A stretch of DNA of 64,000 nt from Halorubellus sp. JP-L1 (GTDB taxonomy: Archaea > Halobacteriota > Halobacteria > Halobacteriales > Natrialbaceae): NCBI RefSeq assembly GCF_011440375.1, contig NZ_JAAOIR010000003.1, forward strand, positions 124,001 through 188,000, given 5' to 3'. Position 1 is the first letter of the stretch. Every line of letters starts with the position of its first letter. Shown piece after piece: positions 21,165 through 53,691 of the stretch. Below the pieces are notes generated by a model that saw nothing but the letters and a program-made list of their open reading frames with translations, was not told where the DNA came from and searched no databases. The position numbers and the translations under genes are program-made.

Positions 21165-21453
21165 ATGACCGACCAGATGCGGAACGGCCTGTTCACCGAA
21201 CAGGGCAAGGCAGCGATCGAGAAGGCCGGCTACGACGAGCCCGGCGCGACCTCCTGGGAGTCCCGGGGGCTCGGTGACGACCCGGTGGTGCCCCACGGGG
21301 GCCGCGAGGTCATCGGATGGCCGTTGCACACGGTCGTCCGCGGCCAGTTCGCGTACGCCGACGGCGATGGTTCGCGATCAGCACGCTGACGAAGACGGCG
21401 AGGTCGACGGCGCGTACGGGTACGGGACGCACATCGGTCGCCCCATCGAACTG
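21165..21453 (+). pseudogene. Fused remnant of an isochorismatase-like hydrolase and a hydantoinase
   Basis: The first 42 codons (KAAIEKAGYDEPGATSWESR, then GLGDDPVV) match the start of the intact hydrolase at 29354-30022. They run directly into GREVIGWPLHTVVRGQFAYA, which matches the C-terminus of the intact hydantoinase at 27967-29361 (ELAGWPTHTVVRGQIAY). After GDG a frameshift follows; the tail YGYGTHIGRPIEL continues in another frame. In the intact pair the hydrolase also precedes the hydantoinase, so one deletion of about 1.7 kb in a second copy explains the fusion. The copy lies inverted relative to the intact one. Confidence 0.85.
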
Positions 21454-21568
21454 GGACAAAGGTACGAGCTATGGAACACGGACACATCAACGCGGCAGGC
21501 GACGGCGCACAGCACTCACCGACGGGCGTGGTGGCGAACCACTCGGATCGACGAGGGACGGTGGTCAG

Positions 21569-22771
21569 ATGACTGAACGAGCCGGCCCCCTAGCGGGACT
21601 GCGGGTCGTGGAGGTCGGAACGATGATCTCCGCGGGCACGGTCGGTCGGCTGCTCGCCGACTTCGGCGCGGACGTCGTGAAGGTCGAGCACCCGAAGGCT
21701 GGCGACCACTTGCGGCGGTTCGGGCCGGAGAGCAACGACGCTGGCATTTGGTGGAAGTACCTCGCGCGCAACAAGCGCTCGGTGACGCTCAACCTCTCCA
21801 CGGAGGAAGGGAGCGTGGTGTTTGAGGACCTCGTCGCGGAGGCGGACGTGCTCGTGGAGAACTTCCGCCCGGGAACACTGGAGCGCTGGAACGTCGGCTG
21901 GGATCACCTATCGACGGTGAATCCGGACCTCGTGATGCTCCGATTGAGTGGGTTCGGACAGACCGGCCCGTACAGCGAACGCCCCGGGTTCGGGACGCTT
22001 GCCGAGGCGATGTCGGGGTTCGCGTACCTGAACGGGTTCCCGGACCGCGAGCCGCTCCTCCCGCCGAGCGGGCTCGCCGACGGCATCGCCGCGATGTACT
22101 CGACGTTCGCCGTGATGTTCGCGCTCTACCACCGAGACGTCAACGGAGGTGGCGGCCAGTACATCGACACCAGCCTCATCGAGCCCATCTTCTCCATCCT
22201 CGGGCCGCAGCCGCTGCGGTACCAGCAACTCGACGAGGTCGAGGAACGCGCGGGGAACCGCTCAACGTCGTCCGCGCCCCGGAACGTCTACGAGACGAAG
22301 GACGACCGGTACGTCGCCATCTCCGCAAGCTCGCAACCGATCGCGATGCGGTTGTTCGACGCCATCGATCGCCCGGACCTCAAGGACGACCCGCGCTTCG
22401 AGACTAACGAGAAGCGCCTTGAGAACGTCGAGGAACTGGACGCGATCATCCAGGACTGGATGGACGACCACGACCGCGAGACGATTCTGGAGCGCTTCGA
22501 GGAGTACGAGACGACGATCGCGCCGATCTACAACGTCGCTGACATCGTCGAGGACGACCACTATCGGGCCCGGGACGCGGTCGTGGAGGTCCCCGACGAC
22601 GACCTCGGGGACGCGCTCGTCCAGGGCGTCGTCCCGAAGTTCTCGGAGACCCCTGGCGAGATCACGCACCTCGGGCCGAGCCTCGGCGAGCACAACGACG
22701 AGGTGTACGCGGAGATGCTCGGATACGACACGGAAACGCTCGCGGACCTCGAGTCCGCGGGGGCGATCTGA
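21569..22771 (+). CDS. Class III CoA transferase (CaiB/BaiF family)
   Basis: 400 aa from ATG 21569. The N-terminal PLAGLRVVEVGT and RLLADFGADVVKVEHP motifs, RNKRSVTLNLSTEEG and LVENFRPGTLERWNVG are classic for the family. The catalytic Asp that forms the aspartyl-CoA intermediate is most likely Asp171 in GLADGIAAM. It moves CoA between a donor thioester and a carboxylate. It starts a same-strand run with the aldolase and the hydro-lyase genes. This suggests it activates a di- or hydroxyacid for, or recovers CoA after, cleavage by the lyase that follows. No promoter of its own is evident; transcription may enter through the dead remnant upstream. Confidence 0.85.
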   Translation: MTERAGPLAGLRVVEVGTMISAGTVGRLLADFGADVVKVEHPKAGDHLRRFGPESNDAGIWWKYLARNKRSVTLNLSTEEGSVVFEDLVAEADVLVENFRPGTLERWNVGWDHLSTVNPDLVMLRLSGFGQTGPYSERPGFGTLAEAMSGFAYLNGFPDREPLLPPSGLADGIAAMYSTFAVMFALYHRDVNGGGGQYIDTSLIEPIFSILGPQPLRYQQLDEVEERAGNRSTSSAPRNVYETKDDRYVAISASSQPIAMRLFDAIDRPDLKDDPRFETNEKRLENVEELDAIIQDWMDDHDRETILERFEEYETTIAPIYNVADIVEDDHYRARDAVVEVPDDDLGDALVQGVVPKFSETPGEITHLGPSLGEHNDEVYAEMLGYDTETLADLESAGAI

Positions 22772-22791
22772 ATGCCGGCGCTCGCTCGCGT

Positions 22792-22798: not shown

Positions 22799-22804
22799 GC
22801 CTGA

Positions 22805-23743
22805 ATGGACCTCCCTGCGGACGTGACGATCGTCGAGATGCTACCACGCGACGGGTTCCAGCGCCTCGACGAGTTCGTGCCGACCGACGAGAAGGTCGAG
22901 ATAATCGACGCGCTGTCCAGTACCGGCGTGGACGAGATCGAGTTCACGTCGTTCACGCACCCGAAAGCGGTGCCGACGCTCCGGGACGCCGACGAGGTCG
23001 CGGCGCGCATCGACCGCAACGACGACGTCACCTATCGCGCGCTCGTCCCGAACGCCGTCGGGATGGAGCGCGCTTTGGAGGCGGGCGTTGACAAGGTGAA
23101 CGCACTTGTCACCGTCTCGGAGACGTATAGTCGGAACAACCAGAACATGACCGTCGACGAGATCCTCGACGAGATCGACGCTATCGTCGAGCTCGCCGAC
23201 GGCACTGACGTCGAGGTCGAAGCCGGGATGGGGACGAGCTTCTACTGTCCGTACGAGGGGCGGATCCCGCAGGAACAGACGCTCGCGGTGGTTGACCGCG
23301 TCGTGGAGGCGGGCGTGGACGAGGTGACGCTCGCGACGACGATGGGGCTCGCGAACCCGGTGCAGGTGGAGTCGATGTTCGACGAGGTGTTCGAGCGCCA
23401 CCCCGACATCGACGTCGGATTGCACCTCCACGATACGAACGGGATGAGTCTCGCGAACACGCTCACCGCGATGCAGGCGGGCGTCGATCGCTTCGACGCG
23501 TCGCACTGCGGGCTCGGCGGCGGCGTCGTGCTCCCCGAAGGAATGTCGGGCGTCGGGAACACGCCCACGGAGGACCTCGTCCACATGCTCACCGAGATGG
23601 ACGTCGCGGTCGACGCGGACTTCGACCGCGTCCAGGACGTCGCGCGCGACGTCTCGGACCGCCTCGGGCTCGGAGCGACGAGTCACGTCCTCATGGGCGG
23701 GACCGTTGCGGGCGTCCTCGACACCGTCGCCGGCGACGAGTAG
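22805..23743 (+). CDS. HMG-CoA lyase-like DRE-TIM metallolyase lacking the usual catalytic Cys
   Basis: A 312-aa TIM barrel. The opening VEMLPRDGFQ holds the conserved Arg-Asp pair, and GLHLHDTNGM gives the His-x-His metal ligands. These match 3-hydroxy-3-methylglutaryl-CoA lyases. HMG-CoA lyases end their active-site loop with GLGGCP(Y/F), where Cys is catalytic. Here the region reads ASHCGLGGGVVLPEGMSG, so that Cys is Gly and the loop is longer, while NTPTEDLVHML keeps the usual helix. A nearby Cys (SHC) may or may not substitute. It probably cleaves or forms a C-C bond in a related 3-hydroxyacyl-CoA. A true HMG-CoA role is doubtful. Confidence 0.75.
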   Translation: MDLPADVTIVEMLPRDGFQRLDEFVPTDEKVEIIDALSSTGVDEIEFTSFTHPKAVPTLRDADEVAARIDRNDDVTYRALVPNAVGMERALEAGVDKVNALVTVSETYSRNNQNMTVDEILDEIDAIVELADGTDVEVEAGMGTSFYCPYEGRIPQEQTLAVVDRVVEAGVDEVTLATTMGLANPVQVESMFDEVFERHPDIDVGLHLHDTNGMSLANTLTAMQAGVDRFDASHCGLGGGVVLPEGMSGVGNTPTEDLVHMLTEMDVAVDADFDRVQDVARDVSDRLGLGATSHVLMGGTVAGVLDTVAGDE

Positions 23744-23848: not shown

Positions 23849-25162
23849 ATGACAGGCAAGACGCTGGCGGAAAAGATACTGTCGCGGAAGTCCAACACCG
23901 ACGCGTACGCCGGAGACTACGTCGAGGCGGCGATCGACGTCGGGTTCACGCACGACGTCACTGGCCCGCTCACGTTCGACGTGTTCGAGGAAGTGACGGG
24001 CGGTGACGGCGAACTATTCGACCCCGGTCGAACGGCGATCACGATCGATCACCACGCACCCGCGGACGGCGTACAGGCGGCGAACAACCACAATCGCGTC
24101 CGCGAGTTCGCCGCGGAGTACGGCGCCGTCCAGTACGCCGTCGGCGACGGCATCTGCCATCAGGTCCTCGTCGAGGACGGGTTCGCGGGACCGGGCGATC
24201 TCGTGATCGGAGCAGACTCGCACACGACGACGTTCGGCGGCCTCGGCGCGTTCGGCACCGGCGTCGGGTCGACCGACCTCGGCACCGCGCTTGCGACCGG
24301 TGAACTCTGGTTCCGCGTGCCCGAGACGCTCCGGTTCGAGGTCGAGGGAGACCTCCCCGACGGCGTGTACGCGAAGGACCTCATCCTGCGGTTCATCGGC
24401 GACGTCGGGTTCGACGGCTGCACGTACATGGCCGCGGAGTACGCGGGCAGCGCCGTGACGGACCTCCCCGTCCATGAGCGACTCGTGCTCGCGAACATGG
24501 CGATCGAGATGGGCGGGAAGGCCGGCATCGTTCCGCCCGACCAGCGCACCGTCGACTATCTCGAAGCGCAGACCGGGGAGCGCGTCGACCTCGACCCGGA
24601 CCTCGCATCCGACCCCGACGCCGCCTACTACGACGTCCACAGGTACGACGCCGCCGCGTTCTCGCCGCAGGTGTCGAAACCGAGCAACCCTGAGAACGCC
24701 GTCGACGTGGACGAGGTCGTCGGGACCGAGATCGACCAGTTCTTCGTGGGGACGTGCACGAACGGGCGCTACGAGGACATCCGCGTCGTCGCGGACATCA
24801 TGGAGGGTGAGACGCTCGCGCCGGGGACCCGGATGGTGGTCGTCCCGGCGTCCGCGGACGTCTACGACCGCATGCTCCAGGGCGGCGAGTTGAAGACGTT
24901 CGTCGACGCGGGCGCCATCGTGCAGGCCGCCGGCTGCGGCCCGTGTTTCGGCACGCACCAGGGCGCGCTCGGCGACGGCGACGTCGCGCTCGCGACCGCG
25001 AACCGGAACTTCCCCGGACGCGAAGGTTCGATGGACAGCGAAGTGTACCTATCGAGTCCCGCAACCGTCGGCGCCAGCGCGCTCTACGGCGAGATCACGG
25101 ACCCGCGCACCGTCGAGACGCCGCGCTACGACGACGTCGTCCTCGAGGAGGTCGCGGCATGA
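23849..25162 (+). CDS. Aconitase-superfamily hydro-lyase, large subunit (LeuC/DmdA-like), copy 1
   Basis: 437 aa, typical for archaeal LeuC-type subunits. VIGADSHTTTFGGLGAFGTG is the signature region. Three Cys ligate the [4Fe-4S] cluster: one in FVGTCTNGRYED and two in AAGCGPCFGTHQG. It adds or removes water on a di- or tricarboxylate (isopropylmalate, homoaconitate, maleate, citraconate or dimethylmaleate type). No leucine-synthesis partner (leuA, leuB) is adjacent; the neighbours are catabolic, favouring a degradative hydratase. The small subunit overlaps by 4 bp. A second, diverged pair is at 38.1-39.9 kb. Confidence 0.85.
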   Translation: MTGKTLAEKILSRKSNTDAYAGDYVEAAIDVGFTHDVTGPLTFDVFEEVTGGDGELFDPGRTAITIDHHAPADGVQAANNHNRVREFAAEYGAVQYAVGDGICHQVLVEDGFAGPGDLVIGADSHTTTFGGLGAFGTGVGSTDLGTALATGELWFRVPETLRFEVEGDLPDGVYAKDLILRFIGDVGFDGCTYMAAEYAGSAVTDLPVHERLVLANMAIEMGGKAGIVPPDQRTVDYLEAQTGERVDLDPDLASDPDAAYYDVHRYDAAAFSPQVSKPSNPENAVDVDEVVGTEIDQFFVGTCTNGRYEDIRVVADIMEGETLAPGTRMVVVPASADVYDRMLQGGELKTFVDAGAIVQAAGCGPCFGTHQGALGDGDVALATANRNFPGREGSMDSEVYLSSPATVGASALYGEITDPRTVETPRYDDVVLEEVAA

Positions 25163-25674
25163 CGGGCGCGACGAACATCACCGAACCCGGGCGGGCGTGG
25201 GTGTTCGGCGACGACATCGACACCGATCAGATCGCACCGTCGCGGTTCCTCGTTTCCAGCGATCCCGAAGAACTCGCCGAAGCCGCGTTCCACGACCATC
25301 GCCCCGAGTTCCACGAGGAGGTCGTCGACGGCGACTTCGTCGTCGGGGGCGAGAACTTCGGGAGTGGATCCTCGCGCGAGCACGCACCACTCGCGCTCGT
25401 CGGCGCGGGCGTCGACGGCGTCGTCGCCGTCTCCTTCGCCCGCATCTTCTTCCGGAACGCCATCAATCTCGGGCTCCCCGTACTCATCAGTCCCGAGGCG
25501 AGGCGGATCGACGACGGCGACGAGATCGCCCTTCGGCTCGAGGAGGGGACCATCGTCAACCATACGACCGGCGAGACATACGACGCCGAGGCGCTCCCGC
25601 CGTTCCTCCAGGAGCTCGTTGACCGCGGCGGCCTGAAGCCGTACACGAAGGCGAAGCTCGCCGGCGACCTGTAG
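25159..25674 (+). CDS. Aconitase-superfamily hydro-lyase, small subunit (LeuD/DmdB-like), copy 1
   Basis: 171 aa; its ATGA overlaps the large-subunit stop. [20 protein letters not shown] gives the start of the swivel domain and its substrate-recognition loop. ENFGSGSSREHAP carries the conserved active-site Ser-Arg, and FARIFFRNAINLGLPVL is the usual core. The loop after DTDQI (RFLVSSDPEELAEAAFHD) differs from that of copy 2 ([18 protein letters not shown]), so the two enzymes probably take different substrates. Confidence 0.85.
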   Translation: MTGATNITEPGRAWVFGDDIDTDQIAPSRFLVSSDPEELAEAAFHDHRPEFHEEVVDGDFVVGGENFGSGSSREHAPLALVGAGVDGVVAVSFARIFFRNAINLGLPVLISPEARRIDDGDEIALRLEEGTIVNHTTGETYDAEALPPFLQELVDRGGLKPYTKAKLAGDL

Positions 25675-25798
25675 GACCGAAGGGGTCGCCTCCCCCGCGG
25701 ACACGGTTCGAGTGCGAGGGAGCGGTCATCGCTCGATCGACTCGACGAGTCGTCCCGTCCGAAGGTTCGTCACTCGGATGCGTGTACCATCGTCCGTA

Positions 25799-25808
25799 GT
25801 CTTAAGAC
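25799..25808 (+). promoter_or_regulatory. TATA box for the peroxiredoxin gene
   Basis: GTCTTAAGAC, a perfect 10-bp palindrome centred about 28 nt before ATG 25832, fits a leaderless promoter. Confidence 0.5.
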
Positions 25809-25831
25809 ATCAGTCCCCGAACGTCCCATCC

Positions 25832-26320
25832 ATGCTTCACGAAGGTGACACCGTACCAGACGTGACGGCGAAGGTGACCGCTGGCGACGACGGCCACGAG
25901 ACGTTCTCGCCCGCCGACGCAGTCACAGACGGCCCCGTCATGCTCGCGTTCTTCCCGCTCGCGTTCTCCTCGATCTGTACCACGCAGGTCGAGGACGTCC
26001 AGGAGAATCACCTCGATCAGCTCCGCGATCTCGACGCCAACGTGTACGGCGTCAGCGTCGACAGCCCGTACGCGCTCTCGGCGTTCCACGAGGAGCGCGA
26101 CCTCGAGTTCCCGCTGGTGAGCGACTTCAATCGCGAGATCATCGAGGCGTTCGGCATCGCGACGGACGCGGTCGGGCTCGAGGACGTCGCCCAACGCGCC
26201 GTGTTCGTCGTCGACGAAGACCAGCGGGTCGCGTACGCCAACGTCCTCGAGGACGGCACCGAACTCCCGACTATGGATCCCGCAATTGACGCCGTCGAAC
26301 GGCTGCAGGCGGCCGACTGA
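25832..26320 (+). CDS. Peroxiredoxin, 1-Cys AhpC/TSA type
   Basis: 162 aa from ATG 25832. FFPLAFSSICTTQVEDVQEN carries the peroxidatic Cys49 with the T-x-x-C context slightly altered (SSIC). VYGVSVDSPYALSAFHEERD and FPLVSDFNREIIEAFGI are the conserved Prx core. No other Cys is present, so recycling must use an external thiol. It removes peroxides or peroxynitrite. It is monocistronic with its own promoter and unrelated to the catabolic genes except by position. Confidence 0.85.
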   Translation: MLHEGDTVPDVTAKVTAGDDGHETFSPADAVTDGPVMLAFFPLAFSSICTTQVEDVQENHLDQLRDLDANVYGVSVDSPYALSAFHEERDLEFPLVSDFNREIIEAFGIATDAVGLEDVAQRAVFVVDEDQRVAYANVLEDGTELPTMDPAIDAVERLQAAD

Positions 26321-26984: not shown

Positions 26985-27755
26985 TCACATGTACTCGAGG
27001 TTGATCTCGAGCTCGTTGGCGGTGCCCAGCAGGAGGTTGGGGATCTCCTCCTCGAACCAGTCGCCGCGGATTCGGTGGCTGGGCCCGGAGACCGAGAGGG
27101 CGCCGTTGACCGTATCGTCTGGGCCCAGGACGGGGGCGGCAACGGCCCGCAAGCCCTTGATTGCCTCCTCGTCGTTGAACGCGATGCCTCGCTCGCGGAT
27201 ATCGTCGAGCTGGTCGACCAGTTCGTCGCGGTCCGTGACCGTGTTCTCGGTCAGCTCGGGAAGCCCCCAGCGATCCAGGATCTCCTCGACGCGGTCCTCG
27301 GGCATGTGGGCGAGCATCGCCTTCCCGCCGGCGATGGTGTGGAGATAGCGGTAGGTACCGATGCGGGAGTTGGTGCGGACGGCGTGATTGCCGATGCCGC
27401 GGTAGAGGTAGACGGCGCGGCCGTGTTCCTCGGTCATGAAGAGCGAACGCTCGTCGGTTTCCTCCGCGAGCGTGTCGACGGCTGGACGGACCAGCTCGTA
27501 GACGTTCCGACGGGCTCGCGCGTACTCACCGAAGTTGAGGAACTTCAGACCGACGTGGTACGTGTCGCCTTCCTGAACGACGAACTCGTGGCGGTCGAGC
27601 GCCTTGAGGTGACGGTGGACGGTGCTCTTCGCGAACCCGGTCTCTTCGGCGAGTTCGGTAACGCGCCCACCGTCGAGGTCACGGATGGCTTCGACGATGG
27701 CGAACATCTTGTCCGCCGTCTTCAGTCCCCCGTCGTCGGCGTCGTTCGTGCTCAT
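26985..27755 (-). CDS. IclR family transcriptional regulator
   Basis: 256 aa from ATG 27755 (MSTNDADDGGLKTADKMFAI). A winged helix-turn-helix with GGRVTELAEETGFAKSTVHR and HLKALDRHEFV fills residues about 25-75. The effector domain follows, with RSLFMTEEHGRAVYLYRGIG, GTYRYLHTIAGGKAMLA and ERGIAFNDEEAIKGLRAVAA, the last being the IclR ligand-pocket region. It lies in a catabolic island, next to the hydantoinase-hydrolase operon and read in the same direction. Two matching 17-bp operators lie upstream (27786-27802 and 27905-27921), the first over its own promoter. Autoregulation and control of the neighbouring genes are likely; the effector is unknown. Confidence 0.9.
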   Translation of the reverse strand: MSTNDADDGGLKTADKMFAIVEAIRDLDGGRVTELAEETGFAKSTVHRHLKALDRHEFVVQEGDTYHVGLKFLNFGEYARARRNVYELVRPAVDTLAEETDERSLFMTEEHGRAVYLYRGIGNHAVRTNSRIGTYRYLHTIAGGKAMLAHMPEDRVEEILDRWGLPELTENTVTDRDELVDQLDDIRERGIAFNDEEAIKGLRAVAAPVLGPDDTVNGALSVSGPSHRIRGDWFEEEIPNLLLGTANELEINLEYM

Positions 27756-31633: not shown

Positions 31634-32121
31634 GCGACCAGACGGCCGGCGACGAGGGCGGTGACGTCGACGAGCGGGCGGCCCTCCGCGGCGTCGTCGA
31701 GGAGTTCTTCGAACGTATGGCCGACGACGACCGGCGGTCGACCGTCGGGGAACTGTTCGCGGACGACGCCACCATCACGGTCCCGGGCGCGACGTTCGAG
31801 GGCTCAGATGCTGCCGACGAGATGCTCGCGTTCTTCGCGCCGCGCTACGAGTGGGCCGCCAAGGAGTACGACCGCTGGTTCGTCGACGAGCGCGAGAACG
31901 CGGTCGTCTCGCTCGGCACGCTCTACGGCGTGGACAACGACGGCGACGAGTTCTCGGACGTGAGCTACGTCGACGTCTACGAGATCCGGGACGGGGAGAT
32001 CGATCGCCTCGACATCTACAACGACCTCGTGGCCGACGGCGTCGTCCCGGTCGGGGGCGCGAGCGGTGTCGGCGACGACGCTACCGCCACCGGGAGCGGT
32101 TCGGAGGGCGCGAATCGATGA
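31630..32121 (+). CDS. SnoaL/NTF2-like protein
   Basis: 163 aa; ATGA overlap with the flavoprotein stop. VVEEFFERMADDDRRSTVGE, then LFADDATITVPGATFEG, then SYVDVYEIRDGEIDRLDIYN give the cone-shaped NTF2-like fold of SnoaL-type cyclases, isomerases and hydrolases. The last 25 residues are low-complexity Gly, Ala, Asp and Ser. In catabolic operons such proteins often act as small isomerases or hydratases, or bind a substrate. No catalytic residue can be assigned. Its position between two flavin enzymes suggests it treats the same intermediate. Confidence 0.68.
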   Translation: MSDQTAGDEGGDVDERAALRGVVEEFFERMADDDRRSTVGELFADDATITVPGATFEGSDAADEMLAFFAPRYEWAAKEYDRWFVDERENAVVSLGTLYGVDNDGDEFSDVSYVDVYEIRDGEIDRLDIYNDLVADGVVPVGGASGVGDDATATGSGSEGANR

Positions 32122-40781: not shown

Positions 40782-40866
40782 ACCCACCGCTAGCGGGGGC
40801 CGTGACAAAAGCCTGCCTCTCGGGGCGAACCTCCACGTCCGGCTGGCCGACTCGGCGAGTCGAGGG

Positions 40867-46047: not shown

Positions 46048-46218
46048 ACACCCTGTTCGTGGGTTGCAGACGCCATAACACTAGTGGGAAGGTCGGGTCC
46101 GTTACCCGGGTTCATGGGCTGGTGGCGATACCCGAGTGGGTGCCAGGAGGCACGTACTGGCGGTCGTATCCGTTGACCGTCTGCCAACGTTCCCTCGACG
46201 GTGTTCCTCTAGCAACAA

Positions 46219-46226
46219 CTTTATAC
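46219..46226 (+). promoter_or_regulatory. TATA box for the ABC binding-protein gene
   Basis: CTTTATAC lies about 37 nt before ATG 46260, the best match to the core promoter in the divergent spacer. It suggests a short leader of about ten bases. Confidence 0.5.
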
Positions 46227-46259
46227 TCACTCGACCGAAACCACACGGTATCGCCTAGC

Positions 46260-47594
46260 ATGAGTGACGATAACAACACTAGCAGACGAAACTACATCAA
46301 GACCGCCGGGGCGGGCGTCGCCGCGGTAGGAATCGCTGGCTGTACCGGGAACGATGGCGGCGGTGACGGCGACGGCGGCGACGGCGGCGACGGCGGCGAC
46401 GGCGGTGACACCGACACCACGTCCGGATCGAACGGCGGATCGGCGCCCGACGAAATCCTCATCGGCGGGAATCATCCGCTGTCCGGCTCCCTCTCACGTG
46501 CAGGGGTCGCGATGGCGAACGGTGGCCGTCTCGCCGTCAAGCACATCAACGACGGCGGCGTCGTCCCCGGATTCGAGGACGGCGGCATCCCGGCACTCGA
46601 CGGCGCCGAACTCGCATTCGAGGCGAGGGACAACAAGGGCGAACAGGAACTCGGCGGCGAAGTCGAACAGGAGCTCATCGACGCCGGCGCGAAAGTCCTC
46701 ACCGGCTGTTACAGTTCGCCCGTGACCCTGGCCGCGACGCAGGTCGCGGAGCGCTCGCAGATTCCCCACGTCGTCGACGTCTCCGTCGCCGACGGCATCC
46801 TCCAGGGCCGAGACGCCGAGTACACGTGGCGGGTCTCACCGAACGCGAACCGGTTCGCGGAGAACTACGCCGAGTTCATGCCGAACCTCGCCCGCGCGAA
46901 CGACAAGACCTACGACACCGCGTCTATCGTCTACCTCAACACCGCCTTCGGGCAGGCGATCCGCCAGCACCTGAACACCTACCTCCCGGAGAACGACGTC
47001 GAGGTCGTGATGGAGGACGCCTACGAGTTCGGCCAGTCCAGCATGGACACCGAGGCGACGAAGGTCAAGCAGACCGACGCCGACGCGTTCGTCTTCGTCG
47101 GCTACGCCGGCGGCGGTATCCGGATGATGAACTCGTTCCAGAACGTGAACTACCGGCCGTCCCTCATGACCGGCTGTTCGACGCCGACGTACACGTCGGT
47201 CGACGCCGTCACGGAGATCGGGAGGTACGCGAACGGCGGCTTCGGGAACAACTACGACTTCAACTACAACCTCGACTGGACCGACAAGATCTTCGCAGAC
47301 TACCGGACCGAGTTCGGTGAGCCCCTCGAAGTCATCCACGCGGCGATGACCTACACCACGGTCGTCACCGTCGCGAACGCCATCGAGGAAGCCGGGTCCG
47401 CGAACGTCGACGACATCAACAGCGCACTCGGGAACGTGTCCGTGTCCGACCATCCCGCGGCGATGGGGCCGGTCACCTTCCGCGACGACCACGAGAACGA
47501 GAACGGGATGGCGCCGATGCTCAACGTCAAGAACATCGACCCCCAGGTCGTCTGGCCCGAGGAGTACGCCGAGACCGAGCCGGTGTTCGAGTAA
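46260..47594 (+). CDS. ABC transporter substrate-binding protein (LivK family), Tat lipoprotein
   Basis: 444 aa from ATG 46260. The twin-Arg signal SRRNYIKTAGAGVAAVGIAG ends in the lipobox GIAGC; the Cys after cleavage would be lipid-modified and exported folded. A Gly/Asp-rich linker of about 35 residues made of GGD repeats is a common haloarchaeal tether. The periplasmic-binding fold begins ILIGGNHPLSGSLSRAGVAM. The ligand cleft regions GCYSSPVTLAATQVAERSQI and VYLNTAFGQAIRQHL are visible. Ligand unknown; members bind amino acids, amides, urea or aromatic acids. Likely partner of the 41.8-43.2 kb ATPases and 47.8-49.8 kb permeases. Confidence 0.88.
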   Translation: MSDDNNTSRRNYIKTAGAGVAAVGIAGCTGNDGGGDGDGGDGGDGGDGGDTDTTSGSNGGSAPDEILIGGNHPLSGSLSRAGVAMANGGRLAVKHINDGGVVPGFEDGGIPALDGAELAFEARDNKGEQELGGEVEQELIDAGAKVLTGCYSSPVTLAATQVAERSQIPHVVDVSVADGILQGRDAEYTWRVSPNANRFAENYAEFMPNLARANDKTYDTASIVYLNTAFGQAIRQHLNTYLPENDVEVVMEDAYEFGQSSMDTEATKVKQTDADAFVFVGYAGGGIRMMNSFQNVNYRPSLMTGCSTPTYTSVDAVTEIGRYANGGFGNNYDFNYNLDWTDKIFADYRTEFGEPLEVIHAAMTYTTVVTVANAIEEAGSANVDDINSALGNVSVSDHPAAMGPVTFRDDHENENGMAPMLNVKNIDPQVVWPEEYAETEPVFE

Positions 47595-47771: not shown

Positions 47772-48719
47772 ATGCTACCGCTGGTCACTGGCAGCCAGAT
47801 ACTCGAGCCGTTCCGCAACTTCTGGACGGACCTATCGGCGCTCGACCCTGTTCTCTTGCAGCTGGCGGCGTTCGCCGTCCTCCTCGGGGGCGTGTACGCG
47901 CTCGCCGCGCTCGGGTTGACGATGATCTTCGGCGTCATGGACGTCATCAACTTCGCGCACGGGATGTTCCTCGTCGTCGGCATGTACACGGCGTGGCTCG
48001 TCTCCTCGAACCTCGGCTTCCCGGACTACGTCGGGCTCCCGATAGCGATCATCGCCGCGACGGCGTTGATGTTCGCCGTCGGTTGGATACTGAGCGTCCT
48101 CACCATCGAACCGATCATCGAAGCACCCGAGGAGAACCAGTTCATCGTCACCCTCGGGATCTCGTTCATCCTCCTCGCGGCGCTCCGCCTCCGCTTCTCG
48201 ACCCAGTCCCGCCAGATCAACCTCCAGTTCGGCGAGCTACAGATCGGGGGCACGTTCATCCCGTGGGCCCAGCTGGCCGCCGTCGGCATCGCCGTCGCCG
48301 CGATCGTCGCCGTCTACCTGTTCCTCCAGTACACCAAGCGGGGGCGAGCCATCCGCGCCACCGCCGACAACCGCGACGGCGCCTGGTACATGGGTATCGA
48401 CGTCCCGCGCGTCGACCACCTGACCTTCGGGCTGGGAGCCGCACTCGCCGGGCTGGCGGGCGCTTCCATCGCGCTGTTCTCGCCGTTCAGCCCCTCCGCT
48501 GGCGACGTCTACCTCGTCCGGGCGTTCATCATCGTCGTCCTCGGCGGACTGGGGTCGTTCCCGGGCGCCCTCGTCGGCGGGCTCGTCATCGGGTTCATCG
48601 AGGTGTTCGGCGGCTACTACCTCCCCGGCACGTTCGGTGACGTCGTCGTGTTCGCGCTGTTCGTCGGTCTCCTCTACGTCAAACCCACCGGGCTGTTCGG
48701 CACGGAGGCAGAGCGATGA
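47772..48719 (+). CDS. Branched-chain amino acid-type ABC permease (LivH family)
   Basis: 315 aa. A 30-residue amphipathic lead is followed by LGGVYALAALGLTMIFGVMD and VINFAHGMFLVVGMY, the LivH signature. VYLFLQYTKRGRAIRATADN and VVLGGLGSFPGALVGG give the later LivH blocks. It pairs with the LivM gene through a 4-bp overlap and completes the importer of this island. It is a diverged relative of the permease at 0.3-1.2 kb rather than a fresh copy. Confidence 0.9.
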   Translation: MLPLVTGSQILEPFRNFWTDLSALDPVLLQLAAFAVLLGGVYALAALGLTMIFGVMDVINFAHGMFLVVGMYTAWLVSSNLGFPDYVGLPIAIIAATALMFAVGWILSVLTIEPIIEAPEENQFIVTLGISFILLAALRLRFSTQSRQINLQFGELQIGGTFIPWAQLAAVGIAVAAIVAVYLFLQYTKRGRAIRATADNRDGAWYMGIDVPRVDHLTFGLGAALAGLAGASIALFSPFSPSAGDVYLVRAFIIVVLGGLGSFPGALVGGLVIGFIEVFGGYYLPGTFGDVVVFALFVGLLYVKPTGLFGTEAER

Positions 48720-49786
48720 GTGCGGAGTCCACGCCCCTCGAGGGCGTCAGCGACGCGTACTCGCGATTCGACGAGCACCGGTACAGTTCACTCGCGAAGG
48801 GCGTGCTGGGGTTCGCGTTGCTCGCCGCGCTCCCGTTCCTCTCGAAGAACACGCCTCTCGGTGGGTTCCTCTCCGTCAACGTCCTCGTCGTCACCCTCGT
48901 GTTCGCGTACACCAGTCAGGCGTGGAACATCGTCAGCGGGTTCACCGGGTACTTCTCGTTCGGGCACGCGGCGTTCTTCGGCCTCGGCGCGTACATCGCG
49001 ACGAAGCTCGTCGTCGCGTATAGCGTCAACCCCTGGATCGGGCTGCTCGTCGCGGCCGTCGTTGCGGCCGTCGTCGGACTGGTCGTCGGTTACCTGAACT
49101 TCCGGTACCGACTGAGTGGGCACTACTTCGCGCTCGCCACGTTCGCGTTCGCGATGCTCCTCCAGGTGACGTTCCGGAATCTGGGGGAGTTCGGCGGTGC
49201 CGTCGGCATCTACCGGCCGTTCCCGCGGGACTACATGACCAACCCCGAGTACGGTCTCGTCGCCATGCAGTTCCGTAGCCCCGAACCCTACTACTACGTC
49301 ATCCTCGCGTTCCTCGTCATCGTCACGGTGGCGGCGTGGCTCATCAAGAACAGCCAGATGGGGCTGTACCTGTTCGCCATCCGCGAGAACGAGGACGCCG
49401 CGGCCAGTATCGGCATCTCGACGTACCGCTACAAGATGGCCGCTACCGGCATCAGCGCGTTCTTCACGGCGTGGGCGGGGACGTTCTGGGCGTTCTACCT
49501 GGAGCTCATCCGGCCGGAGACCGTGTTCGGCCTTTTCAAGAACGTCCAGATCCTCCTGCCCGCAGTCGTCGGAGGGCTCGGTACCATCGCCGGGTCGATC
49601 GTCGGGGCGTTCGTCATCTTCCCCCTCAGCGAGTTCCTCCGCCTCAACTTCGGGGACCTCGCGGGCGCCGACGACATCGTCTACGGGCTCTCGCTCGTCC
49701 TCATCGCGCTCCTCCTGCCGAACGGCGTCCTCTCGCTCCCTGCTCGAATACGGTCGCTGCTCGGTGGAGACGACGACGAAGACTGA
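48716..49786 (+). CDS. Branched-chain amino acid-type ABC permease (LivM family)
   Basis: 356 aa; ATGA overlap. About 40 polar residues precede the first helix. WNIVSGFTGYFSFGHAAFFG is the LivM motif. The cytoplasmic loop IRENEDAAASIGISTYRYKM and the GGLGTIAGSIVGAFVI stretch are conserved. The last residues are acidic. Convergent with the second PrpD-like gene, 42 bp between stops. Confidence 0.9.
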   Translation: MSAESTPLEGVSDAYSRFDEHRYSSLAKGVLGFALLAALPFLSKNTPLGGFLSVNVLVVTLVFAYTSQAWNIVSGFTGYFSFGHAAFFGLGAYIATKLVVAYSVNPWIGLLVAAVVAAVVGLVVGYLNFRYRLSGHYFALATFAFAMLLQVTFRNLGEFGGAVGIYRPFPRDYMTNPEYGLVAMQFRSPEPYYYVILAFLVIVTVAAWLIKNSQMGLYLFAIRENEDAAASIGISTYRYKMAATGISAFFTAWAGTFWAFYLELIRPETVFGLFKNVQILLPAVVGGLGTIAGSIVGAFVIFPLSEFLRLNFGDLAGADDIVYGLSLVLIALLLPNGVLSLPARIRSLLGGDDDED

Positions 49787-49828: not shown

Positions 49829-51187
49829 TCAGGGCCGGAGTGCTGTTCCGACGTCGCGCACCGACCTGTTCCTGATATCCAGCACTGCCTCCAGTGCCAC
49901 GTCCGGGTCGTCGACGCCGTGTTCGAACAGATCGCCGAAAAGCGCGTGCAGGTCGGCCTCGTCCGGTGCGCGTCGGAAGTCGCCGGGCGGGTCGACGCAC
50001 TCAGCGTCGACGGTCCGGCCGTCATCGTGGGTGACCTCGACGCGGGCGCTCCAGTGCTCGGGGAACGTCTGCTCGTAGGTCGGGTCGTGGTGGAGGTGGA
50101 CGCGTTCGGCGAGCGCGAGCGTGTCTGGGTCCGAGAGGGCGTCGCCGTGGAAGTCCTCCAGCCAGAGGTCGCCCGACGCGAGGTATCGCGCGAGGACGAA
50201 CGGGATGGAGAACTTCGCGCTCGTGTACGTCGAGACGTCGTGGTAGTCGAGGTCGCACGCGTTCCGGTACGTGTAGACGTCGATGGACTCGACCGCGTCG
50301 ACGTCGACGTCATCGACGATCTCCTGGAGCGCGCCCAGCGGCGGGTGCGTGTATCGGCACGAGGGCGTGAACTTGAAGTATGACTCCCGGACGTTCCAGT
50401 GGTCGCCGAGCGTCCGGAACCAGCGGTCGAAGCCGCCGTCGGTCAGGTCGTCGAGGGGCCCGTAGACCTCCCCCATCGCTGCCTTCGAGCCTTGGAGGCC
50501 CGCGGCGGCGGTAAGTGCGGCGTCGACGCCCGCCTGCGCGGAGAACCCGGCGGTGAAACTCCGCGACGTCGGCCCTTCTTCGTAGGCGTCGTGCATGGAG
50601 ACGACGGCGAGGTTCGCCGCGATGCGGAACGCGTTCCGCAACTGGTCGTCGTCGAGGTCCATGCAGAGCGCGCCGGTGAGCGCGGGGCCGACGGTCGTCC
50701 ACGTCGAGTGCGGGTTGCGGACCAGCCACGGGAGTGCGTCGTTCATCCGGTCCTTCATCGCGAAGATCCCACGTTCGAGTCGCGTGCATATCTCGTAGGC
50801 CTTCACCGCCGCCTCGACGAACGCCTCGCCGTCGGCGTCGGCGTGCTCGGCGAGCGCGAACCCGCCACCGACGATGCTCGCGCCTACGTGCCCGCCCGTG
50901 TTGTGCCCCTCCTCTATCTCCTGGACGATGGCGGCGGACGTGTTCGCGAGGGCCGCTTGCCCGGGTGCAGCACTGCGGTCGGTGCCGAGGACGGTCGCCG
51001 TGCCGTCCGCGAAGTCCGCGCCGTTCGCGACCTCGTTGACGTCCGCCAGGTTCGCGCCGGCCGTCGCCGCCGCGAGGACGTCCGCCACGACGAGGGCGCC
51101 CCGGTCGAGGACGTCGTCGGGGACTGGCTCCTCGAGGAACTCGTACGTTTGCTGCTCCCATACCGGCAGGTCTGCGGTCGCTGTCAT
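49829..51187 (-). CDS. MmgE/PrpD family protein, copy 2
   Basis: 452 aa from ATG 51187. AALANTSAAIVQEIEEGHNT and GGHVGASIVGGGFALAEHAD hold the family motifs. The later block SYFKFTPSCRYTHPPLGALQ parallels YFKRHAACRYTHP of copy 1. It resembles copy 1 in layout but not closely in sequence, so it may take a different acid. It sits divergent to the glutaryl-CoA-dehydrogenase-like gene, with a 102-bp spacer. Confidence 0.82.
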   Translation of the reverse strand: MTATADLPVWEQQTYEFLEEPVPDDVLDRGALVVADVLAAATAGANLADVNEVANGADFADGTATVLGTDRSAAPGQAALANTSAAIVQEIEEGHNTGGHVGASIVGGGFALAEHADADGEAFVEAAVKAYEICTRLERGIFAMKDRMNDALPWLVRNPHSTWTTVGPALTGALCMDLDDDQLRNAFRIAANLAVVSMHDAYEEGPTSRSFTAGFSAQAGVDAALTAAAGLQGSKAAMGEVYGPLDDLTDGGFDRWFRTLGDHWNVRESYFKFTPSCRYTHPPLGALQEIVDDVDVDAVESIDVYTYRNACDLDYHDVSTYTSAKFSIPFVLARYLASGDLWLEDFHGDALSDPDTLALAERVHLHHDPTYEQTFPEHWSARVEVTHDDGRTVDAECVDPPGDFRRAPDEADLHALFGDLFEHGVDDPDVALEAVLDIRNRSVRDVGTALRP

Positions 51188-51268: not shown

Positions 51269-51289
51269 CTGAGAGCCCCACGCAAGGGT

Positions 51290-52453
51290 ATGCTGGATTA
51301 CGTCTCGCTGGAGAGCGATCTTGGCGACGAAGAGCGCATGATACGCGACACCGCCCGCGAGTTCGTCGACGAGAAGGTCCGCCCCGACATCGGCCAGCAC
51401 TTCGAGGACGGCACCTTCCCCACGGAACTCATCCCAGAGATGGGCGAACTCGGCTTCTACGCCCCCAACCTCGAAGGGTATGGGTCGCCGAACGTCTCCG
51501 AGAAGGCCTACGGCCTCCTCATGCAGGAACTCGAAGCGTGTGACTCCGGACTGCGTTCGATGGCGAGCGTGCAGGGCGCGCTCGTCATGTACCCCATCCA
51601 CGCGTTCGGTAGCGAGGAACAGAAGGAACGATGGTTGCCCGACATGGGCATGGGCGAGAAGGTGGGCTGCTTCGGGCTGACCGAGCCCGAACACGGCTCG
51701 AACCCCACGGCGATGGAGACCAGCGCCGAACGCGACGGCGACGAGTACGTCCTGAACGGCTCGAAGACGTGGATCACGAACTCGCCGATCGCGGACGTCG
51801 CCGTCGTGTGGGCGAGGGACCGCTCCGAGGACGACGACCCCGTCCGTGGGTTCCTCGTCGAAACTGACCGAGACGGTGTCACTACCAACAAGATCACGGA
51901 GAAGCTCTCGCTCCGGGCCTCCATCACCGGCGAGATCAGTCTCCAGAACGCACGCATCCCCAGAGAGAACCGTCTCCCGCACGTCGAGGGGATGAAGGGC
52001 CCGCTGTCGTGTCTCACGCAGGCGCGCTACGGCATCGCGTGGGGCGCCGTCGGCGCCGCCCGCGACGCCTTCGAGACCGCTCGCCAGTACGCGCTCGACC
52101 GCGACCAGTTCGGCGGCCCCATTGCCAGGTTCCAGCTCCAGCAGCAGAAGCTCGCGGAGATGGCTACGCAGATCACGCTGGGCCAACTGCTCGCGCACCG
52201 GCTCGCGGACCTCAAGGAACGAGGCGACCTCCGCCCGCAGCACGTCTCCATGGCGAAGCGCAACAACGTCGCCATGGCGCGCGAACAGTCGAAGGTTGCC
52301 CGCGAGATGCTCGGTGGGAACGGCATCACGACCGACTACTCGCCGATGCGGCACATGGCGAACCTCGAGACCGTCTACACGTACGAGGGCACGCACGACA
52401 TCCACACGCTCATCCTCGGCGAGGACCTCACCGGCATCGCCGCCTTCGAGTGA
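51290..52453 (+). CDS. Glutaryl-CoA dehydrogenase-like acyl-CoA dehydrogenase
   Basis: 387 aa. LTEPEHGSNPTAMETSAERD and YVLNGSKTWITNSPIADVAV are FAD and substrate regions. The C-terminus, GGNGITTDYSPMRHMANLET then YTYEGTHDIHTLILG, is almost textbook glutaryl-CoA dehydrogenase, with catalytic Glu366. These enzymes oxidise and decarboxylate glutaryl-CoA to crotonyl-CoA and CO2; some relatives only dehydrogenate. The class III CoA transferase two bases downstream matches the known pairing of gcdH with a glutarate:CoA transferase. It suggests that a C5 or methyl-branched dicarboxylate is one intermediate of the island. Confidence 0.85.
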   Translation: MLDYVSLESDLGDEERMIRDTAREFVDEKVRPDIGQHFEDGTFPTELIPEMGELGFYAPNLEGYGSPNVSEKAYGLLMQELEACDSGLRSMASVQGALVMYPIHAFGSEEQKERWLPDMGMGEKVGCFGLTEPEHGSNPTAMETSAERDGDEYVLNGSKTWITNSPIADVAVVWARDRSEDDDPVRGFLVETDRDGVTTNKITEKLSLRASITGEISLQNARIPRENRLPHVEGMKGPLSCLTQARYGIAWGAVGAARDAFETARQYALDRDQFGGPIARFQLQQQKLAEMATQITLGQLLAHRLADLKERGDLRPQHVSMAKRNNVAMAREQSKVAREMLGGNGITTDYSPMRHMANLETVYTYEGTHDIHTLILGEDLTGIAAFE

Positions 52454-52455
52454 CG

Positions 52456-53691
52456 ATGGTCGGCGAAGCGAAGGAGCCAGACGAGGACGAAGGGCCGCTT
52501 TCCGGCGTGACGGTACTGGACGCGTCGCGGGTGCTCGCGGCACCGTTCTGCGGGATGCAGCTTGGGGACCTCGGTGCGGACGTCATCAAGGTCGAACGCC
52601 CCGGCGTGGGCGACCAGACCCGCGGCTGGTACCCGCCCACGTACGGGGACGACGCGGACGGCGAGAGCGCGTACTACCTCAGTATCAACCGCAACAAGCG
52701 CTCCATCACGCTGAATCTCGCGAGCGAGGACGGCCGCGAGGTGTTCCGCGACCTGGCGAGCGAGGCGGACGTCCTCCTGGAGAACTTCCGCGTCGGCAAG
52801 ATGGACGAGTGGGGTCTCGGTTACGAGGATCTCAAGGCCGAGAACCCTGGTCTGGTGTACGCCCACATCACGGGCTACGGCGAGTGGGGGCCGGACGCCG
52901 AACGTGCTGCCTACGATATCATGATGCAGGCCCGGGGCGGGATGATGAGTATCACCGGCGAGGAGGGCGGCGCCCCGGTCCGGGTAGGTGTCGCGATCGC
53001 CGACCTTGGCGCGGGCATGTACGCCACGCAGGCCATCCTCGCTGCGCTCTTCCGGCGGGAGTTCGCGGGCGACGGCGAAGGACAGAAGGTGGACGTCAGC
53101 CTCTACGACGGCCAGGTGGCGTGGATGACTTACATGGCGTCGTACTACTTCGCGTCCGGCGACCCGCCGGGGCGGATGGGGAGCAAGCACCCGACCATCG
53201 CGCCCTACCAGGCGTTCGAGACCCGTGACGACTACATCGTGGTCGCCGTCTCCAGTGAGAACATGTGGCCGCGGTTCTGTCGCGCCATCGACCGCGAGGA
53301 CCTGATCGACGACCCCCGGTTCGCGGAGAACGCCGACCGCGTACGGAACCGGGACGAACTGGACGCCATCCTCGACGCTGAACTCGCCGACTACCGAACG
53401 GTCGAGATCGCCGATCAGCTGGACGAACACGGCGTCCCCGCGAGTTCCGTCAAGGACATGGCCGATGTCTTCGACGACCCCCAAGTGGACGCACGACGCA
53501 TGCACCAGCACGTCGAGCACCCCACAATCGGCGACGTCGAGATGCCTGGGAGTCCGATGCATCTCTCGAAGACCTCCACCAGCATCCGCCGTCACCCGCC
53601 GCTTCTCGGTGAACACACTGACGAGGTCCTCCAGGAGTTCGGGTACACTGACGAAGACCTCGAACGGCTGAAACGAAACGACGCCATCTAG
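52456..53691 (+). CDS. Class III CoA transferase (CaiB/BaiF family), probable dicarboxylate:CoA transferase
   Basis: 411 aa from ATG 52456, two bases after the dehydrogenase stop. PLSGVTVLDASRVLAAPFC, then GDLGADVIKVERPGVGDQTR, then NRNKRSITLNLASEDGREVF and LLENFRVGKMDEWGLGYEDL are typical. The catalytic Asp is probably Asp183 (VAIADLGAG). ESAYYLSINRNKRS resembles succinate/glutarate:CoA transferases. It would supply the acyl-CoA that the preceding dehydrogenase oxidises. Last gene of the island. Confidence 0.87.
   Translation: MVGEAKEPDEDEGPLSGVTVLDASRVLAAPFCGMQLGDLGADVIKVERPGVGDQTRGWYPPTYGDDADGESAYYLSINRNKRSITLNLASEDGREVFRDLASEADVLLENFRVGKMDEWGLGYEDLKAENPGLVYAHITGYGEWGPDAERAAYDIMMQARGGMMSITGEEGGAPVRVGVAIADLGAGMYATQAILAALFRREFAGDGEGQKVDVSLYDGQVAWMTYMASYYFASGDPPGRMGSKHPTIAPYQAFETRDDYIVVAVSSENMWPRFCRAIDREDLIDDPRFAENADRVRNRDELDAILDAELADYRTVEIADQLDEHGVPASSVKDMADVFDDPQVDARRMHQHVEHPTIGDVEMPGSPMHLSKTSTSIRRHPPLLGEHTDEVLQEFGYTDEDLERLKRNDAI

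Follow-up and report, generated by a model that had tools for sequence, protein, structure and literature searches.

A stretch of 64,000 nucleotides (the window, positions 124001-188000 of contig C3, NZ_JAAOIR010000003.1) from the haloarchaeon Halorubellus sp. JP-L1, whose genome of 3.76 Mb comprises five contigs, carries between 21.5 and 53.7 kb a gene island of 28 genes (~32 kb) that we read as a catabolic pathway in which a cyclic imide would be opened and a branched diacid cleaved to pyruvate and an acyl product. On the strength of gene families and gene order we give this reading an even chance of being right, and the imported ring is likely a methyl-substituted succinimide or maleimide. 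All 28 genes were scanned with Pfam, and families were assigned by Pfam/NCBIfam scans, which recovered every enzyme class named in a preliminary description of this DNA at about the positions given there. The description had overlooked the LLM (luciferase-like monooxygenase) oxidoreductase LUC, a SnoaL-like protein, the acyl-CoA synthetase ACS, the acyl-CoA dehydrogenase ACAD, an SDR oxidoreductase, an IclR-family regulator, a peroxiredoxin and, as its main omission, the HMG-CoA-lyase-family protein HMGL. It had proposed a possible undescribed pathway for a cyclic amide or a branched di- or tricarboxylate. The linkage stands and recurs, with some enzymes replaced by others, among bacteria and in further archaea. 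The pathway itself is here refined: the island would hold two cleavage branches, one of them built on HMGL, and the cyclic amide and the branched diacid most plausibly represent successive stages of a single route.

The steps of this route were inferred from family and gene order. The ring would be imported by a Liv-type ABC system, and a saturated ring or its acid would be epimerized by PrpD and dehydrogenated by the flavoprotein FAD1. The cyclic imide would be hydrolyzed to the half-amide by one of two cyclic amidohydrolases, AMH1 or AMH2, and the isochorismatase-fold amidase ISO would release ammonia to give a citraconate-type diacid, which may be hydrated to a 2-alkylmalate by one of two LeuCD/DmdAB-type hydratases, ACO1 or ACO2. 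From here, the CoA-transferase CoAT3a and HMGL would split the malate as a CoA ester, citramalate giving acetyl-CoA and pyruvate, or, alternatively, the lyase ICL would cleave the free acid of a 2,3-disubstituted malate to pyruvate and an acid. Such acids, for example butyrate or glutarate, would reach crotonyl-CoA through ACS and ACAD and through the CoA-transferase CoAT3b and the glutaryl-CoA-dehydrogenase-like GCDH. The conversion of citraconate to (R)-citramalate, citramalyl-CoA and then acetyl-CoA and pyruvate is the chemistry established, family by family, for an IPMI-type hydratase, a class III CoA-transferase and an enzyme of the HMG-CoA lyase family, and a DmdAB-type hydratase with an enzyme of the PrpB/2,3-dimethylmalate lyase family provides the free-acid version for 2,3-disubstituted malates. 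Both lyase branches need a branched maleate, which an imidase followed by a half-amidase would yield from a methyl-substituted cyclic imide.

ISO served as the marker gene for locus searches. Orthologues with at least 70% identity were found in 12 of the 125 genomes of the family, own genome included, at 13 loci, the next relative by score being 38% identical. In the order, an orthologue (E <= 1e-70) is present in 33 of 392 genomes and in 16 of 95 genera; the module is therefore sporadic, and several copies lie on plasmids. Carriers include Haloferax alexandrinus, H. gibbonsii and Natrinema versiforme. Among named genomes, 47 loci encode an ISO relative. Thirty-one haloarchaeal loci (L064-L093 and L095) were compared. 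ISO and AMH1 are neighbours in 30 of them, and in 25 the matched genes form the unbroken run ISO-AMH1-CoAT3a-HMGL-ACO1-ACO1s (ACO1s being the small subunit); L087 and L089, which belong to the remaining six, are truncated by contig ends. Conservation in other haloarchaea was among the tests named in the preliminary description, and the genes are not scattered. These 31 loci are not all independent: the stretches of L086 and L095 overlap within the same chromosome, L076 and L093 stand for two plasmids of a single strain, and L079 and L080 share a contig. Nearby genes, counted within flanks of at most 10 kb and thus as lower bounds, include LUC (28 loci), FAD1 (26), the SnoaL-like gene (26), LivG (20), PrpD1 (17) and PrpD2 (10). 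In addition, an IclR gene (40-44% identical) adjoins FAD1 in 10 of the 12 family loci. In Haloferax massiliensis, the module occupies two places of one contig in opposite orientation (L079, L080).

The type-2 genes (AMH2, ACS, ACAD, ACO2, ICL, SDR and GCDH) are rarer than those of type 1. A chance neighbourhood of two unrelated catabolic operons could be argued from the absence of AMH2, ACS, ACAD, ACO2, ICL orthologues and GCDH from the stretches read around most type-1 loci. However, genes of both sets occur together in three genomes from three other families. In G138, on a 15-kb contig, the run SnoaL-LUC-AMH2-ACS-ACAD-ACO2-ACO2s-ICL repeats the order of the window and is flanked by ISO-AMH1 on one side and by CoAT3b-LivG-LivF on the opposite side, the AMH2, ACS and ACAD relatives being 72%, 58% and 72% identical. 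G203 has ACO2-ACO2s-ICL, with ICL 90% identical, immediately beside its type-1 operon. A single 40-kb stretch of G364 holds genes from the two branches together with the importer, CoAT3b, PrpD proteins of both types, a 68% relative of AMH2 and a 66% relative of the SDR gene that adjoins ICL, as it also does in L095; ACS, GCDH and a close ACAD are missing from that stretch. We therefore regard a chance neighbourhood as very improbable. On the other hand, ACO2 lies beside GCDH (84-85%) and CoAT3b in G111 and G115, and the 40-kb stretches of these two genomes contain neither AMH nor ISO, so that the two sets travel together but can separate.

Assemblies that look convergent were found elsewhere, in distant archaea and in bacteria. 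In L097-L103 (six loci from Thermoplasmata metagenome-assembled genomes (MAGs) and one labelled only "bacterium"; ISO 40-42% identical), hydratase subunits, ISO and AMH stand together, with CoAT3 and ICL upstream in six of the seven, the seventh (L101) ending early, and with Liv permease genes in L097, L098, L100 and L103. In G424, a 1.5-Mb MAG and the only Thermoplasmata genome searched for HMGL, none was found at E <= 1e-20. Among bacteria, the order is SBP-LivHMGF-PrpD-FAD-PrpD-CobW-AMH-ISO (SBP, solute-binding protein) in the near-identical Variovorax strains SRS16 and PBL-E5, ICL-ISO-SBP-LivHMGF-PrpD-FAD-PrpD-AMH in Methylobacterium currus and M. nodulans, ICL-GntR-AcnA-NTF2-AMH-ISO-SDR-ABC-LLM in Antarctobacter heliothermus from a diatom culture, PrpD-AcnA ... 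ICL-GntR-AcnA-AMH-ISO in Shinella WSC3-e and AMH-ISO-prpB in Hydrogenophaga BPS33. Natronorubrum aibiense (L203, 6033-11623) and Natronomonas pharaonis (L204, 6024-11602) carry compact plasmid operons HyuA-HyuB-ISO-ICL. Micromonospora L107 holds TctB-TctA, ISO (32%), AMH, PrpD, CoAT3 and a CitE-family lyase that scores best, below cut-off, on the itaconate lyase model RipC_Ccl (141 vs 375), and Chloroflexota G536 has HMGL-hydratase-CoAT3-hydantoinase. Among plasmid loci that have a ring opener, the best identities to proteins of the window are 32-36% for AMH, 35-39% for ISO, 34-48% for ICL and 42-45% for FAD1. Thus the ring opener, the hydratase or the lyase appears to be exchanged between lineages around one chemistry, which would support the proposed route.

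As a separate observation, a Porticoccaceae MAG (L108, 1217-10561) has CoA-transferase-HMGL-HyuA-HyuB and an isochorismatase, that is, another ring opener in the same company. The Chloroflexota run L172 (392-18777) contains domain-less proteins, a Rieske oxygenase with a VanA-type domain and HMGL fused to a flavin reductase, and also hydratase subunits, a CoA-transferase and a hydantoinase.

The residues of the hydrolases are those expected of their families. H64, H66, K149, H192, H255 and D325 of AMH1, which we take to be the ligands of the binuclear metal site, are invariant in 9 of 9 aligned sequences, so that the His/Lys/His/His/Asp pattern of cyclic amidohydrolases is present. ISO has the Asp-Lys-Cys triad: D46, K129 and C162, presumably the catalytic triad of isochorismatase-fold amidases, are invariant in 10 of 10 aligned sequences, the alignment leaving out three of the 13 family loci. 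AMH1 and AMH2 are predicted to hydrolyse an imide, and imidases are members of the cyclic amidohydrolase family, according to an excerpt of PMC9863593. AMH1-like hydrolases (53-57%) also stand with an ammonia-lyase, HutU and a D-aminoacylase in Haloarcula halophila (L183) and Halomicrococcus gelatinilyticus (L186), in what look like ergothioneine- or histidine-derivative clusters.

Large and small subunits of both ACO1 and ACO2 exceed the cut-offs of the LeuCD/DmdAB two-subunit hydratases. Two more distant homologues of the ACO1 large subunit, presumed to be LeuC and aconitase, lie elsewhere in the genome, separate from ACO1 and ACO2. Relatives of the ACO2 large subunit (61-77%) occur in 5 genomes besides the own one (392 searched; E <= 1e-150). 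HMGL exceeds the cut-off of the HMG-CoA lyase subfamily model, retains R-D and HxH, and has no second copy in the genome except a 28% relative. ICL, a single copy in the genome at E <= 1e-10, carries the catalytic-Cys motif K-[KR]-C-G-H (PKRCGH in the window, PK[RK]CGH in 4 of 4 close relatives). Its relatives in the PDB are methylisocitrate lyases, petal death protein and 2,3-dimethylmalate lyase, and its segment GKTP resembles EGGKTP of petal death protein; three aligned chains named methylisocitrate lyase (3eoo, 1o5q, 1mum) have EFGxTP, and 4iqd has EFGKTP.

FAD1 aligns with the flavocytochrome c3 fumarate reductase FccA. All 34 FAD1 copies (some loci being counted twice) have Tyr aligned with the catalytic R402 of FccA, and the 33 copies covering the R544 region have Tyr there as well. 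Its best PDB match is 1jrz, which we take to be the R402Y mutant. The same Tyr and an HTQGG motif were present in the three bacterial relatives read, and relatives of 44-45% lie between two PrpD genes in Variovorax and Methylobacterium. As the dicarboxylate-binding arginines are lacking, fumarate or tricarballylate chemistry was set aside and FAD1 likely acts on an uncharged ring rather than a dicarboxylate. Regarding the acyl-CoA enzymes, nine of the ten best PDB matches of GCDH bear the name glutaryl-CoA dehydrogenase (in one case "putative"), and the tenth is named acyl-CoA dehydrogenase; PDB-named glutaryl-CoA dehydrogenases match from E 7e-130, the NCBIfam model GlutCoADH_Des gives 235 bits vs 470, and a second copy, 80% identical, is on contig C5 of the same genome. 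The best NCBIfam model of both CoA-transferases is succinate--glutarate CoA-transferase, at 237 (CoAT3a) and 375 (CoAT3b) vs a cut-off of 750. The island PrpD proteins could be epimerases, by analogy with the MmgE/PrpD protein of the Cupriavidus itaconate cluster, a known C5-dicarboxylate cluster, which is a methylsuccinate isomerase according to the part of PMC12290011 that was available.

Several observations weigh against the imide route. Most NCBIfam equivalog cut-offs are not reached by the island proteins, and the window has its core of six genes divided, within 8.5 kb, into the blocks CoAT3a-HMGL-ACO1-ACO1s (+) and ISO-AMH1 (-), with the peroxiredoxin and IclR genes between them. The cysteine of the GLGGC loop is catalytic in HMG-CoA lyases; HMGL has GLGGG, with Gly in place of Cys, in 9 of 9 aligned sequences and in at least 31 of 34 copies, and its activity is uncertain because this cysteine is lost. 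No aconitase-type gene was present in the stretches read of the Methylobacterium, Variovorax, Hydrogenophaga, Novosphingobium, Natronomonas and Natronorubrum loci, and that several bacterial loci lack the hydratase speaks against steps that follow in a fixed order. Thirty plasmid records carry an ISO relative below 60% identity, of which 19 were examined with flanks of 10-12 kb: ten have a cyclic amidohydrolase or HyuAB, eight of these with ICL, and the other nine have neither a ring opener nor ICL, three of them (L193, L195, L202) being unannotated records in which HyuAB could not be seen. Among the nine, some clusters hold genes of the xanthine dehydrogenase family and for FAD monooxygenases, and in another a polysaccharide-deacetylase-family gene adjoins ISO; therefore, the ISO fold alone is not diagnostic. 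Finally, the accessible part of PMC12290011 describes the Cupriavidus MmgE/PrpD isomerase as inactive on citraconate, mesaconate, itaconate, aconitates and citramalate.

The loop of HMGL was also read in Chloroflexota, where 110 of 301 genomes have matches. Of 30 loci, 25 have the Cys loop and 5 the Gly loop. Within stretches of 3.9 kb, an ICL-family gene adjoins three of the five Gly-loop homologues (L153, L156, L158) and none of the 25 with the Cys loop.

The strongest rival, which we consider somewhat unlikely, is the degradation of a hydantoin, dihydropyrimidine or ureide: AMH would open a hydantoin-like ring, ISO would remove the N-carbamoyl group, and the rest would process the released amino- or oxo-acid, the hydratase acting late or on a side product. 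Two of its arguments also count against the imide route, namely that the best PDB match of ISO is named N-carbamoylsarcosine amidohydrolase and that AMH1 relatives (53-57%) lie within Haloarcula and Halomicrococcus clusters with ammonia-lyase and HutU (urocanate hydratase) genes, which look like hydantoin-type routes. Moreover, AMH1 and AMH2 score best on D-hydantoinase models, the Haloferax alexandrinus module is 2-3 kb from hutUGIH, and a protein 8-31 kb away in G078b/L093, G110 and G113 presumably resembles an M20 N-carbamoyl hydrolase. Plasmid 3 of the betaproteobacterium Variovorax PBL-E5 (L181, 746-11305) carries the F420 biosynthesis genes cofE, C, D, H, G and npdG next to genes for an LLM oxidoreductase, a cyclic amidohydrolase and a C-N hydrolase, a set reminiscent of reductive pyrimidine breakdown. 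On the contrary, the conserved six-gene core contains no ammonia-lyase, aminotransferase or N-carbamoyl amino acid hydrolase. An amidase and a hydantoinase followed directly by a CoA-transferase, a lyase and a hydratase are a better match for a branched, unsaturated diacid than for an amino acid.

A pathway for a branched di- or tricarboxylate (methylsuccinate, citraconate, a homoaconitate-like acid or a methylcitrate-cycle variant), with the hydantoinases and the amidase serving another purpose, appears distinctly unlikely. The PrpD, PrpB-like and aconitase-type genes do resemble the methylcitrate cycle, GCDH-CoAT3b stands by ACO2 apart from AMH and ISO in G111 and G115, and the Cupriavidus methylsuccinate isomerase is an MmgE/PrpD protein. 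Against this stand the ISO-AMH1 adjacency and its company of hydratase and lyase in the haloarchaeal loci. No citrate-synthase-type gene was found among the 28 island genes, and ICL misses the cut-off of the methylisocitrate lyase PrpB equivalog (299.3 bits vs 354.4).

Within the imide reading, a bolder proposal, which we regard as unlikely, is that pyrrole-ring imides left by chlorophyll or heme breakdown serve as substrates, namely hematinic acid and maleimides that bear a methyl group. Methylmaleimide would be converted by way of citraconate and (R)-citramalate into acetyl-CoA and pyruvate (ACO1, CoAT3a, HMGL). For methyl-ethylmaleimide and hematinic acid, the intermediates would be 2-methyl-3-alkylmalates and the products pyruvate and butyrate or glutarate (ACO2, ICL); butyrate and glutarate would reach crotonyl-CoA by ACS-ACAD and CoAT3b-GCDH, and PrpD and FAD1 would feed in reduced, chlorin-derived succinimides. 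Each product would then have its own handling pair (CoAT3a-HMGL for acetyl-CoA, ACS-ACAD for butyrate, CoAT3b-GCDH for glutarate), an attractive fit that was made after seeing the genes. According to excerpts of PMC7318184, methyl, methyl ethyl and methyl vinyl maleimide and hematinic acid belong to the oxidation scheme of chlorophyll and heme, and chlorophyll turnover is on the scale of 10^12 kg per year; the same excerpts cite the occurrence of hematinic acid and maleimides in senescent leaves and in lake sediments and report hematinic acid in leaves, with maleimides not detectable in that study's own samples. Against a tetrapyrrole origin, no linked tetrapyrrole gene was present in the loci looked at, and heme oxygenase (PF01126) was found in 0 of 5 relatives (G203, G364, G536, G421, G424; control positive in 3 of 14), the own genome being outside this set.

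A chlorophyllase or pheophorbide oxygenase was considered for the L172 run and rejected: the Rieske protein has the VanA-type domain, the hydrolase gives only weak alpha/beta matches, and no heme oxygenase is present there. One domain-less L172 protein was modelled (mean predicted local distance difference test (pLDDT) 89.5) and resembles BFA1 and DUF3598, and weakly Ycf58/CpeS folds; as a chlorophyll marker, this likeness is too indirect to carry weight.

The genes of the island are collected in the table. The reading frames of ISO and AMH1 overlap by 8 bases, and 4-base overlaps join the ACO1 large and small subunits, AMH2 and ACS, LivG and LivF, LivH and LivM, and FAD2 and PrpD1. The peroxiredoxin lies outside the conserved module, as only one partial 35% match (G031) was near a module among relatives. 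At 275-5981, the window also holds a second Liv permease pair, an enoyl-CoA hydratase, a major facilitator superfamily (MFS) transporter and a third FAD_binding_2 flavoprotein (3243-4637, 32% identical to FAD1), probably a further catabolic cluster that the edge of the window truncates. Just outside the island, a three-domain thiamine pyrophosphate (TPP) enzyme (54938-56551) adjoins a long NDP-forming acyl-CoA synthetase (56645-59311), and at 7937-12673 a 1578-aa protein with PKD, InlB-like and Ig-like domains is probably a surface protein.

Table. The 28 genes of the island (window positions; paired values are NCBIfam bits vs cut-off unless a Pfam model is named)
Gene	Family and predicted role	Position	Strand	Support
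CoAT3a	Class III CoA-transferase, predicted 2-alkylmalate activation	21569-22771	+	PF02515 389.6 bits
HMGL	HMG-CoA-lyase-family, predicted alkylmalyl-CoA lyase	22805-23743	+	PRK05692 285 bits, cut-off 246
ACO1	Large subunit, LeuC/DmdA-type hydratase	23849-25162	+	PF00330; PRK00402 526 vs 385
ACO1s	Small subunit, LeuD/DmdB-type	25159-25674	+	TIGR02087 172.8 vs 108.95
	AhpC/TSA peroxiredoxin	25712-26320	+	PF00578
	IclR-family regulator	26985-27755	-	PF01614, PF09339
AMH1	Hydantoinase/dihydropyrimidinase-type cyclic amidohydrolase, predicted imide opener	27967-29361	-	PF01979; D-hydantoinase model 244 vs 393
ISO	Isochorismatase-fold amidase, predicted half-amidase	29354-30022	-	PF00857
FAD1	Fumarate-reductase-fold flavoprotein, predicted ring dehydrogenase or reductase	30191-31633	+	PF00890
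	SnoaL/NTF2-like protein, directly upstream of LUC, start codon not fixed	31645-32121	+	PF12680 37.3 vs 27
LUC	F420-type LLM oxidoreductase	32118-33104	+	PF00296; TIGR04024 235.9 vs 345.4
AMH2	Second hydantoinase-type cyclic amidohydrolase	33196-34608	+	PF01979; D-hydantoinase model 279 vs 393
ACS	NDP-forming acyl-CoA synthetase	34605-36704	+	PF13607, PF13549
ACAD	Acyl-CoA dehydrogenase	36793-37923	+	PF00441, PF02771, PF02770
ACO2	Large subunit, LeuC/DmdA-type hydratase	38099-39358	+	PRK00402 486 vs 385
ACO2s	Small subunit, LeuD/DmdB-type	39360-39851	+	TIGR02087 202 vs 108.95
ICL	PrpB/2,3-dimethylmalate-lyase-family lyase	39882-40808	-	PF13714; prpB 299.3 vs 354.4
SDR	SDR oxidoreductase	40867-41649	-	PF13561
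LivG	LivG-type ABC ATPase, start approximate	41754-42491	+	PF00005, PF12399
LivF	LivF-type ABC ATPase	42488-43249	+	PF00005
PrpD1	MmgE/PrpD family	43250-44590	-	PF03972, PF19305
FAD2	FAD_binding_2 flavoprotein	44587-46047	-	PF00890
	Liv-type solute-binding protein, open reading frame bounds, start uncertain	46059-47594	+	PF13458
LivH	LivH-type permease	47772-48719	+	PF02653
LivM	LivM-type permease	48716-49786	+	PF02653
PrpD2	MmgE/PrpD family, start uncertain	49829-51169	-	PF19305, PF03972
GCDH	Glutaryl-CoA-dehydrogenase-like	51290-52453	+	PDB matches
CoAT3b	Class III CoA-transferase, predicted glutarate CoA-transferase	52456-53691	+	PF02515

Taken together, the loci describe a recurrent catabolic module in which a ring opener, an amidase, a hydratase and a C-C lyase are kept together and the ring opener, hydratase or lyase is swapped. 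The enzyme families are each known; no description of the pathway was found among the open-access papers listed, judged by titles and abstract openings, and the combination is not described there. Should an alkyl-imide be the substrate, the module would account for the microbial recycling of a class of nitrogen rings whose breakdown is not described in those papers, and if the chlorophyll/heme proposal is true, it would be the missing last stage of tetrapyrrole mineralization, with modified forms in marine, soil and other archaeal microbes. As carriers include cultured haloarchaea such as Haloferax alexandrinus, the question is directly testable.

Among known systems, cyclic-imide metabolism in Blastobacter A17p-4 reportedly proceeds by an imidase and then a half-amidase. 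The island would resemble such bacterial metabolism in a dihydropyrimidinase-like ring opening followed by half-amide hydrolysis and differs from it by the linked LeuCD/DmdAB-type hydratases, C-C lyases, importer, flavoprotein and PrpD genes. (R)-citramalate cleavage in Chloroflexus uses a class III CoA-transferase and an HMG-CoA-lyase-like (R)-citramalyl-CoA lyase, and the island may be likened to it, by family and gene order, in that a CoA-transferase gene is directly followed by an HMG-CoA-lyase-family gene.

Nicotinate fermentation in Eubacterium barkeri employs a DmdAB-type hydratase and a lyase of the PEP-mutase/ICL family that yield pyruvate and an acid. The island shares these hydratase and lyase types and differs by a separate amidase and an extra branch of CoA-transferase and HMGL. 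A relative of this 2,3-dimethylmalate route that starts from a pyridine ring could be argued from the LeuD/DmdB-family small subunits above cut-off, a lyase family common to 2,3-dimethylmalate lyase, the presence of an amidohydrolase, and the distant ISO relatives clustered with xanthine-dehydrogenase-family and FAD monooxygenase genes. Nevertheless, we hold such an origin to be highly improbable. In agreement with the preliminary description, Pfam found no B12 mutase (as in the B12-dependent 2-methyleneglutarate mutase), no citrate-synthase-type and no molybdenum-hydroxylase domain (as in nicotinate hydroxylase) in the 28 island genes, the rest of the genome not being searched, and neither a separate amidase nor a branch with an HMG-CoA-lyase-family enzyme is known to belong to the nicotinate route. 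As had been noted, neither this fermentation nor the methylcitrate cycle fits completely. The island is like the latter in PrpD, an aconitase-type hydratase and a PrpB-family lyase, and the cycle was set aside for want of a citrate-synthase-type gene in the island and for the missed PrpB cut-off.

The itaconate/methylsuccinate cluster ict-ich-ccl-mcd-mmgE, as presented in excerpts of PMC12290011 and PMC9875883, shares with the island a CoA-transferase, a C-C lyase, an acyl-CoA dehydrogenase and an MmgE/PrpD protein, the CoA-transferase and the lyase yielding acetyl-CoA and pyruvate. The island has instead HMGL or ICL as lyase, an aconitase-type hydratase and ring-opening hydrolases, and itaconate degradation was set aside, as the MaoC-type hydratase (Ich) and CitE-type lyase (Ccl) families are not among the 28 island genes (Pfam). 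In the accessible part of PMC9875883, P. putida carrying the itaconate cluster PA0878-PA0883 of Pseudomonas aeruginosa did not metabolize citraconate or (R)-citramalate; therefore, a route through citraconate, such as the one proposed here, would be complementary to it.

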